A DNA stretch of 59,917 nt from Psittacicella hinzii (lineage in GTDB: Bacteria > Pseudomonadota > Gammaproteobacteria > Enterobacterales > Psittacicellaceae): NCBI RefSeq assembly GCF_003585885.1, contig NZ_NRHC01000038.1, positions 1 to 59,917 on the forward strand, read 5' to 3'. Positions 30,596 through 43,978 of the stretch are shown here, piece after piece. Made by a program: the position numbers and the translations under genes. Below the pieces are notes generated by a model that did not search any database, was not told the origin of the DNA, and was given only the letters and a program-made list of their open reading frames with translations. Numbering within the stretch: the stretch's first letter is position 1; every line of letters begins with the position of its first letter.

Positions 30596-31201
30596 ATGAG
30601 TATTAATAATTTATTCGGAGTGACATTCGAGCTTATGGTTAATTCCACTCTAATTAACTCTTTAAGTTCAACAAGTACAAAATTACCCAATAAAACTTTT
30701 ATCGCTAAACAATTAAATTCTACGCCTAAAAAATTAGGTCTAACTAACTTTGAAGTGGAAGATTTGGTTGTTAAAGCTTTAGATAATTTTAATTTTGAGT
30801 GTAACAATCTATTTGAAAACATTTTACAAGAAAAAAATGATGATAGCCTTGATGACAAAGCTACGATATTTACTAGAGAAGTAATAAAAATCCTATTAAA
30901 GAAACCAAACCTAGCTCATATTCTTTCTTGTAATAATTGCTACTCAAAAGTTGAATTTTCCAACAAAGTTAATGATATTAATACTTCAATCTACTTTATT
31001 TATAAGAGAATATTTAACTCCTTAAATGATAAGTTTAGTTCAGCTTGTGCTCGTATTTATACAGACTTGCTAAATGGTATATTTCTAAATATCTCTCGAA
31101 ATATAGCTAATGAAACTCATCAAGGATTAATTACAGAGATTGAAGCTGAAATTAATAATGAAATTAACTTGTTAAAAGTTTTAATGAAAAAACTTACATA
31201 A
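30596..31201 (+). CDS. Highly diverged SlmA-like (TetR-fold) protein
   Basis: At 201 aa it has nearly the length of E. coli SlmA (198), the nucleoid-occlusion protein that blocks FtsZ over the chromosome, and it occupies the slmA position after dut. By eye, residues ~37-86 align without large gaps to the SlmA helix-turn-helix region, ending in LFENILQEKNDD against RINLILKDEKD. KKPNLAHILSCNNCY aligns with RNPGLTRILTGHAL. Identity is low and the DNA-recognition helix (normally EAALYRHFPSK) is not conserved. I therefore treat it as a likely SlmA ortholog of uncertain function. It has AGGT before the ATG and a strong terminator after. Confidence 0.6.
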   Translation: MSINNLFGVTFELMVNSTLINSLSSTSTKLPNKTFIAKQLNSTPKKLGLTNFEVEDLVVKALDNFNFECNNLFENILQEKNDDSLDDKATIFTREVIKILLKKPNLAHILSCNNCYSKVEFSNKVNDINTSIYFIYKRIFNSLNDKFSSACARIYTDLLNGIFLNISRNIANETHQGLITEIEAEINNEINLLKVLMKKLT

Positions 31202-33287: not shown

Positions 33288-33557
33288 ATTCTTTATATTG
33301 ATCAATATTCTGTAAAATTAGAGCAAAAGTTTTAATAAATTATTTTTATGATCATAATTATTTTATAAAAATTTGAAAATAATTGTGACATTAAAAAAAT
33401 ATTATATTAAACTATATATAGCTCCGTAAAATTAATAAAATACAACTGTATAATTATATACGTTTTTATAGATTTTTTCTATTGTATTTTTATTAATTTG
33501 CCGTTAATAAGTCGCATTATAATTAGTTTCTTTATATTTTTAATTAGAAATAAAGTT

Positions 33558-36335
33558 ATGATTTTTAATAAAAAGAACTATGATGATGCCGTAATTGAAG
33601 GTCTTTACTTAACAATTTTAAGTAGAGTTAACTTCAATGTGTTCGACACTTTACCTTTTTATACTTTCTCATTCTATTTCCCTAACAATTATGAGTTAAG
33701 AGGTAAATTTACGTCGAAAATCGTTTATAACTATCAGCAATACCCAATATTGCAAGATAGAACAAAGCTTCTAGAGAACTCCACTACTCTTAATTACCTC
33801 CAACGTTCTAAAGATATCTTTCCTTTTGTAGGTAAACAAAAAGATTCAGTTCTCGTTACAGAGTACAGTTACTTTGATAATTTAAATCATATAATCCGCT
33901 GTCAATTACTCGGTGAATTAAATGATTTATCTCCTGAATTAGTCATCGGTAATGCTTTAACTCTAAAATTTGTTCATCACTTAAAAATTAGATCGAGAAG
34001 TAAAAACGACTATCGCAATCTAAATAACTCTATCAATTTAAGTGCATATATCTTTAGAAATTTTGAATACGCATTTAATATTAAACGCGATAGTGACTAT
34101 GTATTTGATATAGCGTTAAAAGAAGAAAAATCCAGCATAAATTCTTCAAAATCTTCAAAATCTTCAAATTCTTTTGCTGACGATGCAGTTTTAGATTTGA
34201 ATTTTTATTCTGTTACGAATGAGTTTATTTATCAACAAAAGGATAAAGAGCTTTCAGATGTTAATAAAGTTATAGAAGCTACTCATTTACTACATCTTCG
34301 TCATGCTTTAGGTGAGGATTACTGCAGTCAATCTGATTACCTAAAAGAAGCATTAGAAGATCCTAAGAATGTTTATGCTTATTACTATTTGAAGCATCTT
34401 AAATACAGCTTTTTATACCTTGTTATCGACGAATTAATTACCTCTGAAAATTTTGATTACACTAAATTTTCAGAAGAATATGATTCAGTATTTAATCAAA
34501 AATACTTGATGCCAGAGATAAAAACTAAGCATTTTGTACGCAACCCTAGAGCGTTAATGCTTAATAAATTATTTTCTACTCAAGAATTGATTGATCTGAA
34601 TGGTGAAATAGTATGTAGTCAAGCTAAAAATATTTTTTGTAACTTTAGCCTAATAGAAAATAATCAAATAAAAACTAAAATGGCTATGGTTGTTAATCGC
34701 AACGGGATTATTGAAGCGATTGACAAAGAGGAAAAATTACTTAGCTTACTTACAAGCATTGAGCCTGATTATTCTAAAATTATTCGCAGAAAAAAATATT
34801 TCAACAAGCATCGTAAAATTAAAATTGGCAAAAATAGTATTATTATTGATTTAAATAATAATTTTATTACTGCGGGATTTGTTAATCCAAATCTCAAATC
34901 AGTTGCTAATATTGATTTTTCACATGCTCCAAGCTTAAGTGAAACTAAACATGCTATAAGGGAATGTTTTAAACAAGGATATACAAGTTTAAGATTCACA
35001 AATGACAATAGTTTATCTTATGCTTCTACCTCTTGGTTAAAGGACATAAATAAACTAAGAAAAAGCATACCCCACATTATTCTTGGTGTAAATGGTAACA
35101 ATATAGGCGGAGTTGATTTTTACGGAGAAATTTATCAAAAATCCCATGGAGTTAATTTTAACCAAAACCTCTTTTTCCTAGATCAACTAGAAAAATGTGG
35201 AAATACAGCTTGTATCATTCATCAACATACTGATTTAAATGTTTTAAATTTATTCCTATCTGATTACTATAAACGTAAAAGCGTTAAGTTATTTAATAAG
35301 GAATTTACCTTTGAACAATTAGGTCAAAAGTTTAGAAATCTTACAAGTGATCCTTTACCAACCGAATATCGAATTTTGTCAGACTATAACTCAAGTTATA
35401 AAAGAATGTATCATGATATTTTTTGTGATGACTACTATGACGAAGATTATTTTGATATTTCCGATGACATACGTGATGATGAATTCGTTGATAGTGGATA
35501 TTTTGGTACTTTTAGCTCTCATCCAGCAGTAACCGAACTAATGTATTCTCGATATAATTTTTACCCCATCAGTAATACATTAGGGATAGTTAACAAATTA
35601 ATCCGTCAAAATAACCAAGCAAGTAAAAATTCAAATTTATTTGCAAGTTCATCTAATGGTAGCAGTTCTCCTATACCTCTATTGAGAAACTCGCGTCTAG
35701 CCATTAGCGCAGATTTAAAATACTTTGATTCCAGTTGTTCAATACAGTGGTTAAAAAGTTGTGATATTGCTTATAACCTCCAAACTACTAATCTACCCTA
35801 TATAGATCGAGATACTTATTATTCATTTAGTGATGATGAATTAACTAATGTTAAAACACTCTCCAATAAGTGTTTCTTGAACTTCGAACGCCTTAGTGGT
35901 CAAGATTTTCAACCTAAGAAGCTACTTGATGAAGAATTAGTTGAGCAACTTTATCGCTCAAACTACAATAATTCACAAGGTATAAGCTACTATTTAGTTA
36001 ATTCAAACATGGCTGAACACTTTGAATATTTAGGTAATCGAATTCGTACAATCCGTAAGTATAAACATGACCTTGATTTTTATTTAGATTTTAATATCCA
36101 AAATAATAATCTACCAACTGTGAATGTATTGGAATACCTTAAAGGTTTAAATCTTCCAACTCTAAATTTATTACAACACCTAAATAAAATTCCAGCACAA
36201 GCTCTTGATATTGATAGAGCAATAGGAACTCTAGAAGTAAATAAACTAGCTAATTTTATTATCCTTAATAGAAAGCTAGATAGAATAAACGAAACATGGA
36301 TTAATGGAATCTGTGTTAATTGTAACCCGATATAG
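33558..36335 (+). CDS. Very large NagA-like amidohydrolase homologue, probably catalytically dead
   Basis: A 925-aa protein from the ATG at 33558; a TTG at 33498 adds 20 hydrophobic residues. Residues 1 to ~370 match nothing I recognise and include a Ser/Lys-rich patch near 192-205. From ~375 the protein follows N-acetylglucosamine-6-phosphate deacetylase: VVNRNGIIEAI, ITAGFVNP near 437-444, HIILGVNGNN near 506-515, LAISADLKYFD near 714-724, and a clear C-terminus near 880-920 with IPAQALDIDRAIGTLEVNKLANFIIL and TWINGI. The metal and catalytic positions of E. coli NagA are all replaced: HLEGP is VNGNN, GHS is SSH, HLYN is PISN, TDA is TTN. Insertions include an Asp-rich run near 623-643. There are no frameshifts, and a terminator follows. 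A role in amino-sugar metabolism is not supported. Confidence 0.7.
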   Translation: MIFNKKNYDDAVIEGLYLTILSRVNFNVFDTLPFYTFSFYFPNNYELRGKFTSKIVYNYQQYPILQDRTKLLENSTTLNYLQRSKDIFPFVGKQKDSVLVTEYSYFDNLNHIIRCQLLGELNDLSPELVIGNALTLKFVHHLKIRSRSKNDYRNLNNSINLSAYIFRNFEYAFNIKRDSDYVFDIALKEEKSSINSSKSSKSSNSFADDAVLDLNFYSVTNEFIYQQKDKELSDVNKVIEATHLLHLRHALGEDYCSQSDYLKEALEDPKNVYAYYYLKHLKYSFLYLVIDELITSENFDYTKFSEEYDSVFNQKYLMPEIKTKHFVRNPRALMLNKLFSTQELIDLNGEIVCSQAKNIFCNFSLIENNQIKTKMAMVVNRNGIIEAIDKEEKLLSLLTSIEPDYSKIIRRKKYFNKHRKIKIGKNSIIIDLNNNFITAGFVNPNLKSVANIDFSHAPSLSETKHAIRECFKQGYTSLRFTNDNSLSYASTSWLKDINKLRKSIPHIILGVNGNNIGGVDFYGEIYQKSHGVNFNQNLFFLDQLEKCGNTACIIHQHTDLNVLNLFLSDYYKRKSVKLFNKEFTFEQLGQKFRNLTSDPLPTEYRILSDYNSSYKRMYHDIFCDDYYDEDYFDISDDIRDDEFVDSGYFGTFSSHPAVTELMYSRYNFYPISNTLGIVNKLIRQNNQASKNSNLFASSSNGSSSPIPLLRNSRLAISADLKYFDSSCSIQWLKSCDIAYNLQTTNLPYIDRDTYYSFSDDELTNVKTLSNKCFLNFERLSGQDFQPKKLLDEELVEQLYRSNYNNSQGISYYLVNSNMAEHFEYLGNRIRTIRKYKHDLDFYLDFNIQNNNLPTVNVLEYLKGLNLPTLNLLQHLNKIPAQALDIDRAIGTLEVNKLANFIILNRKLDRINETWINGICVNCNPI

Positions 36336-36352
36336 CAATATCGGGTTTTTTC
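36324..36352 (+). terminator. Terminator of the NagA-like gene
   Basis: AACCCGATAT and ATATCGGGTT form a perfect stem with the loop AGCA, followed by TTTT. The stop codon lies inside the stem. Confidence 0.9.
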
Positions 36353-36607: not shown

Positions 36608-36684
36608 GGCTATGTAGCTCAGCTGGTTAGAGCACAACACTCATAATGTTGGGGTCACAGGTTCGAATCCCGTCATAGCCACCA
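36608..36684 (+). tRNA. tRNA-Met (elongator, anticodon CAT)
   Basis: A 77-base cloverleaf with encoded CCA: acceptor GGCTATG/CATAGCC, D-loop AGCTCAGCTGGTTAGAGC, anticodon loop CTCATAA and T-loop GGTTCGAATCC. It is nearly identical to E. coli elongator tRNA-Met. An initiator or Ile2 tRNA is less likely because the body matches the elongator form. Confidence 0.95.
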
Positions 36685-36691
36685 TTATTTT

Positions 36692-36776
36692 GCGGGAATG
36701 GCGAAATTGGTAGACGCACCAGATTTAGGTTCTGGCGCCGAGAGGTGTAGGAGTTCAAGTCTCCTTTCCCGCACCA
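36692..36776 (+). tRNA. tRNA-Leu (anticodon TAG)
   Basis: An 85-base class II tRNA with a long variable arm and encoded CCA: acceptor GCGGGAA/TTCCCGC and anticodon loop ATTTAGG. It is identical in sequence to the copy at 36870. Confidence 0.95.
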
Positions 36777-36785
36777 TTTTTTAGT

Positions 36786-36860
36786 TGGGGTATCGCCAAG
36801 CGGTAAGGCAACGGGTTTTGATCCCGTCATCCCTAGGTTCGAATCCTAGTACCCCAGCCA
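36786..36860 (+). tRNA. tRNA-Gln (anticodon TTG)
   Basis: 75 bases with encoded CCA: acceptor TGGGGTA/TACCCCA, with the U1 start typical of tRNA-Gln, and anticodon loop TTTTGAT. It is identical to the copy at 36964. Confidence 0.95.
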
Positions 36861-36869
36861 TTTTTTTGT

Positions 36870-36954
36870 GCGGGAATGGCGAAATTGGTAGACGCACCAG
36901 ATTTAGGTTCTGGCGCCGAGAGGTGTAGGAGTTCAAGTCTCCTTTCCCGCACCA
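36870..36954 (+). tRNA. tRNA-Leu (anticodon TAG), second copy
   Basis: Exact repeat of the tRNA-Leu at 36692, displaced by 178 bases. The spacers around the two copies differ, so the bodies are kept identical by selection or gene conversion, or the duplication is fairly recent. Confidence 0.95.
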
Positions 36955-36963
36955 CTTTATTGT

Positions 36964-37038
36964 TGGGGTATCGCCAAGCGGTAAGGCAACGGGTTTTGAT
37001 CCCGTCATCCCTAGGTTCGAATCCTAGTACCCCAGCCA
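36964..37038 (+). tRNA. tRNA-Gln (anticodon TTG), second copy
   Basis: Exact repeat of the tRNA-Gln at 36786, displaced by 178 bases, and last gene of the operon before the terminator. Confidence 0.95.
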
Positions 37039-39760: not shown

Positions 39761-41647
39761 ATGAGCTTTTTCTCTTTCACTTTTATTCTGTTTTTATTTA
39801 TTGTTATTTCTATCTACTGGTCAGTATCTTATAAAACAAATGCTAATACTGCCAAGTTACAAAATATAGTTATAACTTTAGCAAGTTTATTCTTTGTTGG
39901 TTTTATTCATCCATACTTCTCTATAGTACTCTTAGCTTATGCCATCTTTATCCACTTAAGTCAAAGAGCCATTGATAAGGTTATAAACCAGCGACAAGAT
40001 AAAAACTTGAACTTAATTAAGAATAGAGCTCAACATAACTTCTCAGTTCTTTCTTTAAAGTACTTTAAACAAAAGAGTGACATTGAAGAGCTTGAATTAA
40101 CCTTAACTAATAACTCTACAGCACAGTTAACTCTAACAGAGCTTAAACTCGTAGACTCTATATTTTCTTCTCCTTTATCTAGAGTGCAAAATGACTTAGA
40201 AAAGACTTTAAAAAATATTGAAGGAAATGAGGTAGCTAATACTACACGTTTATTAAGTTACAAAGTAGCTGATTATTATCTAACAATTGATGAGTTATTA
40301 GAAAAAGTAAAAATTGAAGAAATTAATGATCGAGATCTAATCTACCTTAATGATAATTTTAATTTCCTTAACTCATTGTTGAAAAATTACAATTTAATTG
40401 AGAAAGATGAACTAGAAAAGAATTACAAAGAAAGCGCTAAAAAAGATTACTCACAAGCAGTACCAGGTTTTAACTTTAGCCTTCTTATAGTTGCGAGTTT
40501 ACTTCCTCTAATTTACTTTAAATACTATGACTTTATTTACGTTAACTTTGTTAATTTTTTAACTAGTCTAGGTTTTACAAATTTAGGAGAGATCTCTAGC
40601 GTTATTCCTGTTCTTGGAATTTCTTACTATACATTTAACAGTATTTCATTGCTAATTTCAGTTAAACGTGGGGAAATTAAAAGCCCTTCACTCTTAACAA
40701 GTTTAACTTTTGTTACTTATTTCCCTACAATAGTAGCGGGACCAATTAACCGAGCAACAACATTAATTCCTCAAATTACTAAAGCTCGCTGTCCACAACC
40801 AATTAATAAAATTTTCTTTTATTTAACTCTTGGTATTAGTAAAAAGTGGTTACTAGCAACTAGTTTATCCATGTACTTTGTGCAACCTGTTTTTGGAGCT
40901 CCGGATAACTATAATAGCTGGGAATTAATCTTAGCTACCTATGCTTACGCTTTCCAACTATACTTTGACTTTAGTGGATATACAGATTTAATGTTCGCTC
41001 TAGGCTTATGCTTCGGTATTACTCATCCTATAAACTTTAGAAACCCATATATCTCTTTAAATATTAAAGATTTCTGGACAAGATGGCATATCTCTCTAAG
41101 TTCATGGATTCGTGACTATATCTATATACCTTTAGGTGGAAATCGTCATGGTTTTCTCTTAGCACAATGTTACACTGTAATAGCTATGCTACTCTCTGGT
41201 ATTTGGCATGGCTCTACTTTAAACTTTGCTTTATGGGGCTTACTACATACCTTAGGGATAATTGGTTTAAATATCTTACATAAAGTTAGTAGCTTTAGAA
41301 TTTCGGATTACAGCAAGTTTATCTCGCGTTTTTTAACATTCAATTATGTATGTTTAACTTGGATATTCTTTAACTCTACTGATTTTGATGCAGCGATAAA
41401 CTTCTTAGAAGCTACTTTTAGCAATTTTTCATTACCTATTCATGAACCTTTAGCAATTATTAGTTTAGTGCTAATTTTCATTTACTGGATGTTACTACCT
41501 CAAGTTGAAAAATTAATTAATAAACTATTAACTGTAAGTCAGGAGATATCATCTAAATACTGTATTGCTATATGCATCCTTGTTTTATGGATAGTTATTA
41601 ATTTATCACCTTCAGGTGTTCCTCCATTCATTTATGCTAATTTCTAG
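39761..41647 (+). CDS. pacA: MBOAT acetyltransferase, peptidoglycan O-acetylation (PacA/PatA-like)
   Basis: Polytopic membrane-bound O-acyltransferase that moves acetyl groups across the inner membrane for transfer to peptidoglycan. MBOAT signatures are FVTYFPTIVAGPI, FQLYFDFSGYTDL, NIKDFWTRWHISLS and LSGIWHGSTLNFALWGLLH (His483, His496). At 628 aa it is about 150 longer than known PacA. After three N-terminal membrane helices, residues ~75-232 form a charged, helical soluble insertion. pacB and ape1 follow within 14 bases each. The function is from family and context; alginate acetylation is the alternative, but no alginate genes are seen. No ribosome binding site is evident. Confidence 0.82.
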   Translation: MSFFSFTFILFLFIVISIYWSVSYKTNANTAKLQNIVITLASLFFVGFIHPYFSIVLLAYAIFIHLSQRAIDKVINQRQDKNLNLIKNRAQHNFSVLSLKYFKQKSDIEELELTLTNNSTAQLTLTELKLVDSIFSSPLSRVQNDLEKTLKNIEGNEVANTTRLLSYKVADYYLTIDELLEKVKIEEINDRDLIYLNDNFNFLNSLLKNYNLIEKDELEKNYKESAKKDYSQAVPGFNFSLLIVASLLPLIYFKYYDFIYVNFVNFLTSLGFTNLGEISSVIPVLGISYYTFNSISLLISVKRGEIKSPSLLTSLTFVTYFPTIVAGPINRATTLIPQITKARCPQPINKIFFYLTLGISKKWLLATSLSMYFVQPVFGAPDNYNSWELILATYAYAFQLYFDFSGYTDLMFALGLCFGITHPINFRNPYISLNIKDFWTRWHISLSSWIRDYIYIPLGGNRHGFLLAQCYTVIAMLLSGIWHGSTLNFALWGLLHTLGIIGLNILHKVSSFRISDYSKFISRFLTFNYVCLTWIFFNSTDFDAAINFLEATFSNFSLPIHEPLAIISLVLIFIYWMLLPQVEKLINKLLTVSQEISSKYCIAICILVLWIVINLSPSGVPPFIYANF

Positions 41648-41658
41648 AAAACACTAAA

Positions 41659-42768
41659 ATGAAACGACTTCTTATTAGTTTTATCTCTTGCATAATCATT
41701 TTGTTCTGGCTTTTTCAGGGATCAATAAATAATTACTGGATAGCTAACTATAGCTCACCTTCTCCATTGACTAAACTAGAAAATTTTAGACTTTGGACTC
41801 TAGGTAAAGATATAAATGATAAAGTCTTAGACTTTAAAGAGTTTGCTTTTTCACAATATAATAATTTAGGAACTTTAGTTACTAGTAGCTTCAACAAAAA
41901 TAGTGAAAATATTAGTGAAGATGTAAGCAAAGAGCAAGATGAAGCAACTAATTTAAAAACTGAAAACTCTAATACGCAAGATGACTTCAAAGAGCTAATT
42001 GAGCAACATAATTTGAATATCCCTAAAGTCTTGCCTGAAAATCAGTTTGCCGTAGGCTATACAGATATCTTTGCGGGAGATAAAGATTTTACAGAATTTG
42101 CATTCCCTGAAGAAGCTTTGCCTATCACTCTAAAACCAGGTGACAAAGTCCTCGTTGCAGGTGATTCCATGCAACAAGGAGTTGGAAGACATATCCGCTC
42201 TTACTTAAGTCATAACTATAAAATTCAATCTAAAGATTTATCTAAACAGTCTACTGGACTTTTAAACCCAAATAATTTAGATTGGAATAAAACCATTACT
42301 CAAGAATTAGCAAGTGATCAAAACTATAAACTTCTAATTATGCTTCTTGGAGCCAATGATAATTATGGACTATATGATCGTGTGACTAAGAAAGGTTATC
42401 CTTTTGGCAGTCTAGAATGGCGTGCTCATTACCTACAACGTATCATGTCTATTATGTATCAAGCTCATGAACATAATGTAAGAGTTATTTGGCTTACGGT
42501 ACCAAACATTCGTAACCCAGAGCTAAACAACAAAATGCAAGTTGTTAATAGCTTATTTAGATCAGCGGCTAAACAATATGGAGTGTTACTTGTAGATACA
42601 AATGTTCCTTTACATCTTTCAGGTAACTCATACTCTCCTTCAATCTATTTAAACGATAAACTAGTAAAAACTCGTTCAGATGATGGTATTCACTTCACTC
42701 CTGCGGGTGAAAAACTAATAGCCAACTATGTATTGTCATATATTGAGTACATAAACAACCTTGAATAG
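41659..42768 (+). CDS. pacB: SGNH peptidoglycan O-acetyltransferase (PacB-like)
   Basis: Periplasmic, membrane-anchored SGNH/GDSL-fold protein of 369 aa. It has an N-terminal hydrophobic anchor (about 4-20), an Asn/Glu/Ser-rich stalk (about 75-115), then the catalytic blocks: AGDSMQQG (Ser170), LGANDNYG near 233 and DGIHFTPAG (Asp342, His345). Its location 11 bases after the MBOAT gene and before an Ape1-like gene matches the Neisseria pacA-pacB-ape1 set, where PacB places the acetyl group on muramic acid. Sequence alone does not separate transferase from esterase activity. Confidence 0.78.
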   Translation: MKRLLISFISCIIILFWLFQGSINNYWIANYSSPSPLTKLENFRLWTLGKDINDKVLDFKEFAFSQYNNLGTLVTSSFNKNSENISEDVSKEQDEATNLKTENSNTQDDFKELIEQHNLNIPKVLPENQFAVGYTDIFAGDKDFTEFAFPEEALPITLKPGDKVLVAGDSMQQGVGRHIRSYLSHNYKIQSKDLSKQSTGLLNPNNLDWNKTITQELASDQNYKLLIMLLGANDNYGLYDRVTKKGYPFGSLEWRAHYLQRIMSIMYQAHEHNVRVIWLTVPNIRNPELNNKMQVVNSLFRSAAKQYGVLLVDTNVPLHLSGNSYSPSIYLNDKLVKTRSDDGIHFTPAGEKLIANYVLSYIEYINNLE

Positions 42769-42781
42769 AGATTGTCTAAAA

Positions 42782-43978
42782 ATGCTTAATAAATTTTTCA
42801 AAATTTATTTAACTTCTATTACTGTATTTCTTTTCTCTTGTACTAATGATACCTCGGTTACCCAACCAAAAGATTATATTAGTAATGACAGTTATATAGT
42901 TGATTATTCAAATAATGATTTAAGAACTATTCAACTAAAGAATAAAATCAAGCAAGCAAAGAAAGAAGGCTTAACAATCGTGCAGCTGGGGGATTCACAC
43001 ACAGCTGCCGATGTTATGACTATGTATTTAAGAAATCGCTTGCGTACATACTTAGGAACAGGTTCTATAGGTTATATTGCTCCCATGAAAGTTCCAGGGC
43101 AGTATAATAGTTTAATCGGTTATAAAAGCACTAACGTATCATTAATTAATGCTCGTAATCATAAAGAGTATAACTATACTATTGGTGGTTTAGTTGCAAG
43201 CTTTAATTCGCGTGGTTCAATTGAATATAAAGCTATAAACGGTAACACAATACCTTTTTCAGAATTAAAAATCACTACACGCTGTACAGCACTAAAAGAT
43301 TGTATTATGATCGTGAGTTCTGATGCAGGAACTGAAACCTTAAGTATTAGAGGAAATCAATGGGCAACCTATTCTGTATTTATTGAAGGGAACTTTAGAA
43401 TTTCGGCTAATGCTAACTTAGAGCTCTCTGGTATGTACATTAATAATACAAATAAAGGTGTTACAGTTTCAGAATTAGGCTCTAACGGTGCCACTATCTA
43501 TTACCTAGATACTTGGGGTAGTGATTGGACTAAACAACTAGCAGCGTTAAAACCAGATCTTGTTATTCTTGCTTTTGGGACAAATGAAAGTTATAATCAA
43601 AACTTTGATTCTAAGCAATATATTAAGGATTACAGCCAATTAATCAGTAGTATTAAAGCAAATACGCAAGCACAGGTAATGTTACTTTCAAATCCTGATA
43701 CGCTTAATATTGCTATAAATAAAAATTTAGCTAATACACGTTGTAATAATTTACAACATGCTGGAGTTGATACAGTTTATTATGATCTAGTACGCATAGC
43801 GAGAAGCAACCAAGTCCTATTTTGGGACTGGCGTCAAGCTATGGGTGGTTCATGTTCAGCAATCAAACAACAAAACGCTCAAATTCTACGTAATGATGGC
43901 GTTCACTTTAGTGCTAATGGTTATAGATTATTTGGCTATCAACTTGCGCATGATATTATTAAACTTGGAGACAAATAG
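42782..43978 (+). CDS. ape1: SGNH O-acetylpeptidoglycan esterase-like lipoprotein (Ape1-like)
   Basis: A 398-aa SGNH-fold protein with a hydrophobic N-terminus ending in a cysteine (Cys20, FLFSC, an imperfect lipobox), so probably a lipoprotein. Blocks are LGDSHTAAD (Ser72), AFGTNESYN, and DGVHFSANG (Asp372, His375). In Neisseria, Ape1 removes acetyl groups so that lytic transglycosylases can act. The start is the ATG 13 bases after pacB with AGAG upstream; a TTG at 42761 overlapping pacB is less likely. Esterase activity is inferred from family and position. Confidence 0.78.
   Translation: MLNKFFKIYLTSITVFLFSCTNDTSVTQPKDYISNDSYIVDYSNNDLRTIQLKNKIKQAKKEGLTIVQLGDSHTAADVMTMYLRNRLRTYLGTGSIGYIAPMKVPGQYNSLIGYKSTNVSLINARNHKEYNYTIGGLVASFNSRGSIEYKAINGNTIPFSELKITTRCTALKDCIMIVSSDAGTETLSIRGNQWATYSVFIEGNFRISANANLELSGMYINNTNKGVTVSELGSNGATIYYLDTWGSDWTKQLAALKPDLVILAFGTNESYNQNFDSKQYIKDYSQLISSIKANTQAQVMLLSNPDTLNIAINKNLANTRCNNLQHAGVDTVYYDLVRIARSNQVLFWDWRQAMGGSCSAIKQQNAQILRNDGVHFSANGYRLFGYQLAHDIIKLGDK

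Follow-up and report, generated by a model that had tools for sequence, protein, structure and literature searches.

N-acetylglucosamine-6-phosphate deacetylase (NagA) stands at the branch point between amino-sugar breakdown and cell-wall recycling. In the mycobacterial enzyme, the beta-sandwich domain (domain II) is split between the two ends of the chain (residues 1-51 and 344-382), and the role of this domain is unclear even in NagA (PMC6016474). Barrel strand 1 is marked by an H-x-H or a Q-x-N motif, according to the definition in the same paper (PMC6016474), and Q-x-N is the form present in E. coli-type NagA.

The window, by which we mean the whole stretch of 59,917 nucleotides of DNA that was analysed, encodes a 925-residue protein (the window protein, Table 1). 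It resembles the NagAs of E. coli, V. cholerae (3egj) and P. multocida (6jku) in its collinear homology at both ends, its beta-sandwich residues and its first barrel strands, and it also carries the C-terminal NagA signature 'PAxAL..iG.l..g.lANf.il....TwvnGi'. Unlike NagA, it is devoid of active-site motifs in the aligned part, has an expanded middle that cannot be aligned and 356 extra residues at the N-terminus, is encoded outside the nag operon, and scores far below the NagA cut-offs. With respect to the wider group of PF01979 amidohydrolases, the homologue from P. hinzii passes the curated cut-off and the window protein is sub-threshold; the family differs from this group in lacking metal-binding motifs wherever they can be checked. 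The trypanosome AdoMetDC prozyme (PMC6221367) is likewise a dead-looking paralogue that occurs beside an intact enzyme in the same genome. The likeness to the prozyme ends at the partner and the regulatory effect, which are putative at most for the window protein. We favour, with a probability of roughly 0.62, the reading that the window protein is a genus-specific NagA paralogue that has lost its active site and works without catalysis, as a binding or scaffold protein.

Table 1. Features of the NagA-derived gene, its product and its terminator (window coordinates)
Feature	Coordinates	Strand	Remarks
925-aa NagA-derived protein (P0001, the window protein)	33558..36335	+	probable start ATG; two other Psittacicella species have homologues (893 and at least 1119 aa)
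Residues 1-356, no known domain	33558..34625	+	no Pfam match
Residues 326-583, most conserved block	34533..35306	+	44% identity to P. melopsittaci; LRT 117 vs <=42 in 12 codon-shuffle controls
Residues 357-516	34626..35105	+	matches NagA 3-140; hhalign E 8.6e-8, probability 94%, score 68.7
Asn445	34890..34892	+	position of Gln59, the Q of Q-x-N in E. coli-type NagA; Asn in 3/3 members
Asn514	35097..35099	+	aligned with metal ligand Glu131; its equivalents are Glu478 (P. melopsittaci) and Asp415 (P. hinzii)
Residues 517-856, expanded middle	35106..36125	+	rich in Asp, Ser and Asn in places; the NagA counterpart has about 185 residues
Residues 857-917	36126..36308	+	matches NagA 325-384; hhalign E 1.1e-6, probability 91%, score 60.3
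Intrinsic terminator	36324..36347	+	overlaps stop codon of the 925-aa gene

NagA ancestry of the two ends

The landmarks by which the sequence-only reading had followed NagA by eye, 'AGF' (found at residues 439-441) and 'IPAQALD..TWINGI' at the C-terminus, are indeed present, and the relationship to NagA is borne out by profile-profile alignment (hhalign), with the three members of the family on one side and 30 NagAs on the other. The two matching pieces (Table 1) are collinear with NagA. When the domain limits of mycobacterial NagA (PMC6016474) are applied, residues 357-516 comprise the N-terminal half of the beta-sandwich domain together with the first three barrel strands, and residues 857-917 comprise the last helix together with the C-terminal half of the beta-sandwich domain. 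The highest score reached by 30 column-shuffled controls was 22, as opposed to 68.7 for the real NagA match. Other Psittacicella amidohydrolases that were tested scored 25-32, as opposed to 68.7 and 60.3 for NagA. An origin from adenine deaminase or from a second amidohydrolase of the genus was considered and rejected, because the matches were far weaker than those to NagA, with control profiles that were one and two sequences deep. Compared directly with the NagA from its own genome, the window protein gave a C-terminal match that is weak but real (E 2e-5). In a PDB search with the family profile, the top matches were NagA structures, and the only secondary match of this profile in each Psittacicella genome was the genuine NagA. 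At the level of sequence, the NagA origin of residues 357-516 and 857-917 is thus shown. In a tree built on the aligned columns, the family groups with Psittacicella NagA (support 0.97), which fits a duplication within the lineage, but this placement may be a result of long-branch attraction.

The family models for NagA are far out of reach for the window protein. It scores 17.5 bits with PRK11170 (cut-off 483) and does not appear among the matches listed for TIGR00221, with which the P. hinzii member scores 23.8 (cut-off 225.65). The genuine NagA of the same genome itself scores 412.6 with PRK11170, below 483, and passes TIGR00221 with 363.8. With PF01979, the window protein stays below the gathering cut-off (16.1 vs 25 bits, with a match over the last 54 residues), and the P. 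hinzii member is above it (28.5 vs 25 bits).

The N-terminal extension had been put at about 370 unrecognised residues; the extension is there, and its length is closer to 356. Residues 101-356 are homologous to the P. melopsittaci protein (E 5e-18), and in the P. hinzii member, homology in the N-terminal part is limited to about residues 312-356, the last 45 or so before the NagA part. A degenerate NagB, as would be left by an ancestral nagBA fusion (nagB precedes nagA in the operon), was rejected as the source of the N-terminus (hhalign E 0.2). When started at the ATG, the window protein contains no hydrophobic stretch of sufficient length to form a membrane span or a signal peptide.

Divergence and constraint

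The claim of an open frame with a terminator of its own was confirmed (Table 1). Given the base composition of the gene, stops would make up about 8% of random codons, and the chance of a 925-codon open frame is about 2e-34. Use of an in-frame TTG at 33498, 60 bases upstream of the ATG, would extend the product by 20 residues to 945 aa; the ATG is favoured, because the gene in P. melopsittaci also has an ATG close to this position.

The window protein is 33% identical to its P. melopsittaci homologue, compared with 74% for NagA and 82-94% for the neighbouring proteins. The synonymous differences of the gene are saturated and similar to those of its neighbours, and the pairwise dN/dS by counting, with dS thus saturated, is about 0.58. 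Maximum likelihood gives a much lower dN/dS and strongly rejects omega = 1, but codon-shuffled controls that were aligned identically reject it as well. In view of the saturation and of the behaviour of the controls, only the result for the block of residues 326-583 stands (Table 1). The LRT for the full length is 188, against <=127 in the codon-shuffle controls; for residues 857-925 it is marginal (17.1 vs <=15.9), and for residues 1-325 and 584-856 it is no higher than in the controls. Purifying selection is demonstrable for the junction and the early NagA part (residues 326-583) only. The dN/dS check that had been proposed to detect decay therefore speaks for constraint in this block only; the test as a whole is affected by the saturation of dS and biased by the protein alignment.

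Very fast divergence relative to NagA and to the neighbours, codon-test results over residues 1-325 and 584-856 that do not surpass those of the shuffled controls, the loss of active-site residues and the variable length (893, 925 and at least 1119 aa) would all be compatible with a slowly decaying gene, i.e. a nagA duplicate that was fused to other sequence, is free to drift and has no important function. Yet frames of 0.9-1.1 thousand codons have stayed open in three species, despite the frequency of stops among random codons, and residues 326-583 are clearly constrained beyond the shuffled controls, which is not what characterizes a pseudogene. Terminators have also been retained after two of the homologues, and the P. 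melopsittaci homologue is found at the same locus. We therefore regard gradual decay as unlikely.

The former active site and a possible role without catalysis

Columns that are invariant in 13 NagAs were compared with the family, using the numbering of the NagA from the same genome (E138 corresponds to E. coli Glu131). The framework columns G58, G95, T97, G134, A348, G358, A366, N367, T380 and G384 are retained in all three members, and within residues 857-917 this applies to six of the eight NagA-invariant columns. By contrast, none of the three has kept D61, Q63, N65, C67, G68, G69, H136 or G139, and E138 is lost in two of them; some other NagA-invariant columns of no clear role have been lost as well. 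The E. coli-type Q-x-N motif of barrel strand 1 has turned into N445-L-K447 in the window protein, and into N-L-K or N-L-H across the family.

The sequence-only reading had every catalytic position replaced. This is correct for Glu131 (Asn514 in the window protein), which P. melopsittaci keeps, and for Q-x-N, but it could not be upheld for His195, His216 and Asp273. Residues 517-856 do not give a profile alignment with the corresponding part of NagA (residues 141-324, hhalign E 0.87). Any assignment of replacements in this region is therefore a guess, including the Asp609, gap and Arg751 that a forced alignment, on which we do not rely, places at the positions of His195, His216 and Asp273, respectively. 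Loss of the three equivalents is likely, though remaining catalytic residues could be located at shifted positions in the middle. NagA-type catalysis by the window protein appears very unlikely; for the middle of the barrel, we infer its absence.

It is conceivable that the NagA framework was retained for a different chemistry, which would be provided by new residues in the expanded middle. N445, N451, N482 and N484, which lie at or beside former active-site positions, are conserved in all three members, and an acidic residue occupies the Glu131 position in the P. melopsittaci and P. hinzii proteins. However, the pattern of conserved Asn residues was judged by eye only, and invariant His, Asp and Glu residues are few or none: there is no invariant His across the three-member family in either of two alignments, and whereas one alignment is also free of invariant Asp and Glu, the other contains D107, D719 and E777. 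A new enzyme is accordingly an improbable explanation.

Structure prediction was of limited help. The full-length AlphaFold2 model, based on the three-member alignment, has a mean pLDDT of 30.5 and no meaningful Foldseek match. A second model, which covers residues 340-925 and was built from an alignment that included two NagA rows, has a mean pLDDT of 38.2. Its strand-helix order fits NagA in residues 371-545, at low confidence and with NagA contained in the alignment, and Foldseek places NagA first for this model, at an E-value (0.009) that is not significant and again with NagA rows in the alignment. Because of the low pLDDT, the fold search is unusable as proof of a barrel for both models. 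That the window protein is not a NagA at all and just shares a beta-sandwich domain with amidohydrolases is highly improbable, for although the alignment is restricted to the two ends and a confident barrel is absent from the predicted structures, the first piece extends over three barrel strands as far as the Glu131 region, and NagA gives better matches than other amidohydrolases do.

A NagA paralogue that works without catalysis could have arisen as follows. nagA was probably duplicated in an ancestor of Psittacicella, with the true nagA staying in the nagBA operon. The duplicate would have preserved domain II of NagA (the split beta-sandwich, made up of the two ends of the chain) together with the first barrel strands, and would have lost the metal and substrate site. 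Its middle would have expanded, and about 250-350 extra residues would have been placed in front. The product, presumably expressed as a protein and located in the cytoplasm, would be a non-catalytic binding or scaffold protein, with residues 326-583 (the junction and the early NagA part) as a constant contact surface. NagA itself is one candidate for the putative partner. The sequence-only reading had also arrived at a pseudoenzyme with a binding, scaffold or regulatory role. Derivation from NagA and loss of NagA catalysis are well supported by the profile-profile alignment, by the restriction of secondary matches to NagA and by the fact that active-site columns were lost selectively; the binding, scaffold or regulatory role is a putative one. 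A more specific version, which we consider unlikely, is that a large new protein was built on the split beta-sandwich and the first barrel strands of the dead NagA and has a ligand pocket or partner of its own; it might, for instance, sense amino-sugar phosphates or regulate NagA.

What pseudoenzymes do in bacteria is a question that clearly arises where a dead-looking, enlarged NagA paralogue persists next to the functional enzyme. A related question is whether the NagA beta-sandwich domain can act as a stand-alone platform. The family also illustrates how much divergence a duplicated housekeeping enzyme may accumulate inside a single genus with its reading frame still open.

The locus and its distribution in Psittacicella

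Psittacicella melopsittaci B96_4 and P. hinzii 111, from a genus of bird-associated bacteria in the Pasteurellales, are the closest relatives among named genomes, which places the window in a further genome of this genus. The 925-aa gene is flanked by psd (phosphatidylserine decarboxylase) on one side, and by a tRNA cluster, followed by nif3-like, murI, rlmH and rsfS genes, on the other. The tRNA cluster (Met-Leu-Gln-Leu-Gln, window 36608-37038, plus strand) contains duplicated Leu and Gln genes. The 893-aa P. melopsittaci homologue likewise borders on this tRNA cluster with its accompanying genes, and thus occupies the same locus. It is also bounded by a terminator at the 3' side, which on direct reading differs in sequence. 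The P. hinzii homologue (at least 1119 aa) takes up an entire short contig (L010), and in this genome the contigs that carry psd and the tRNA cluster both stop at the intervening gap, which is consistent with the same location. This homologue runs at least about 75 residues past the NagA C-terminus (L010 1-220), an extension that the other two members do not have. In a fourth Psittacicella genome (G002), the region between psd and the tRNA cluster is an assembly gap. The contigs of two relatives begin within the tRNA repeat, which probably accounts for the missing locus there.

Outside Psittacicella, no homologues were found in 395 genomes of the order and 369 genomes of the class (the samples overlap by a few genomes), and the GTDB 220 contigs contained none beyond those of P. 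melopsittaci and P. hinzii. A phage, plasmid or defence origin was rejected after PHROG, PADLOC, plasmids and viral contigs gave no convincing match. NagA is present in the other three Psittacicella genomes as well. The earlier remark that nagB is not found near the 925-aa gene holds for the locus, but not for the genome, which has an intact nagB-nagA operon on another contig (L012 2878-4903). Genes around this operon, named by eye, are bioC-like and bioD-like upstream and nanE-like downstream.

Elsewhere in the window, a 201-aa protein without a Pfam or NCBIfam match is encoded directly after coaBC and dut (30596-31201, plus strand). In related bacteria, slmA occupies this spot, and the protein may be a very divergent SlmA. 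Three genes at 39761-43978 (plus strand) encode a long protein that by eye resembles a membrane O-acyltransferase, a DUF459/SGNH protein, and a third product whose N-terminal domain is of the peptidoglycan O-acetylesterase type. Together they look like a peptidoglycan O-acetylation cluster, and the first of them, the O-acyltransferase-like gene, is found at the same place in P. melopsittaci.
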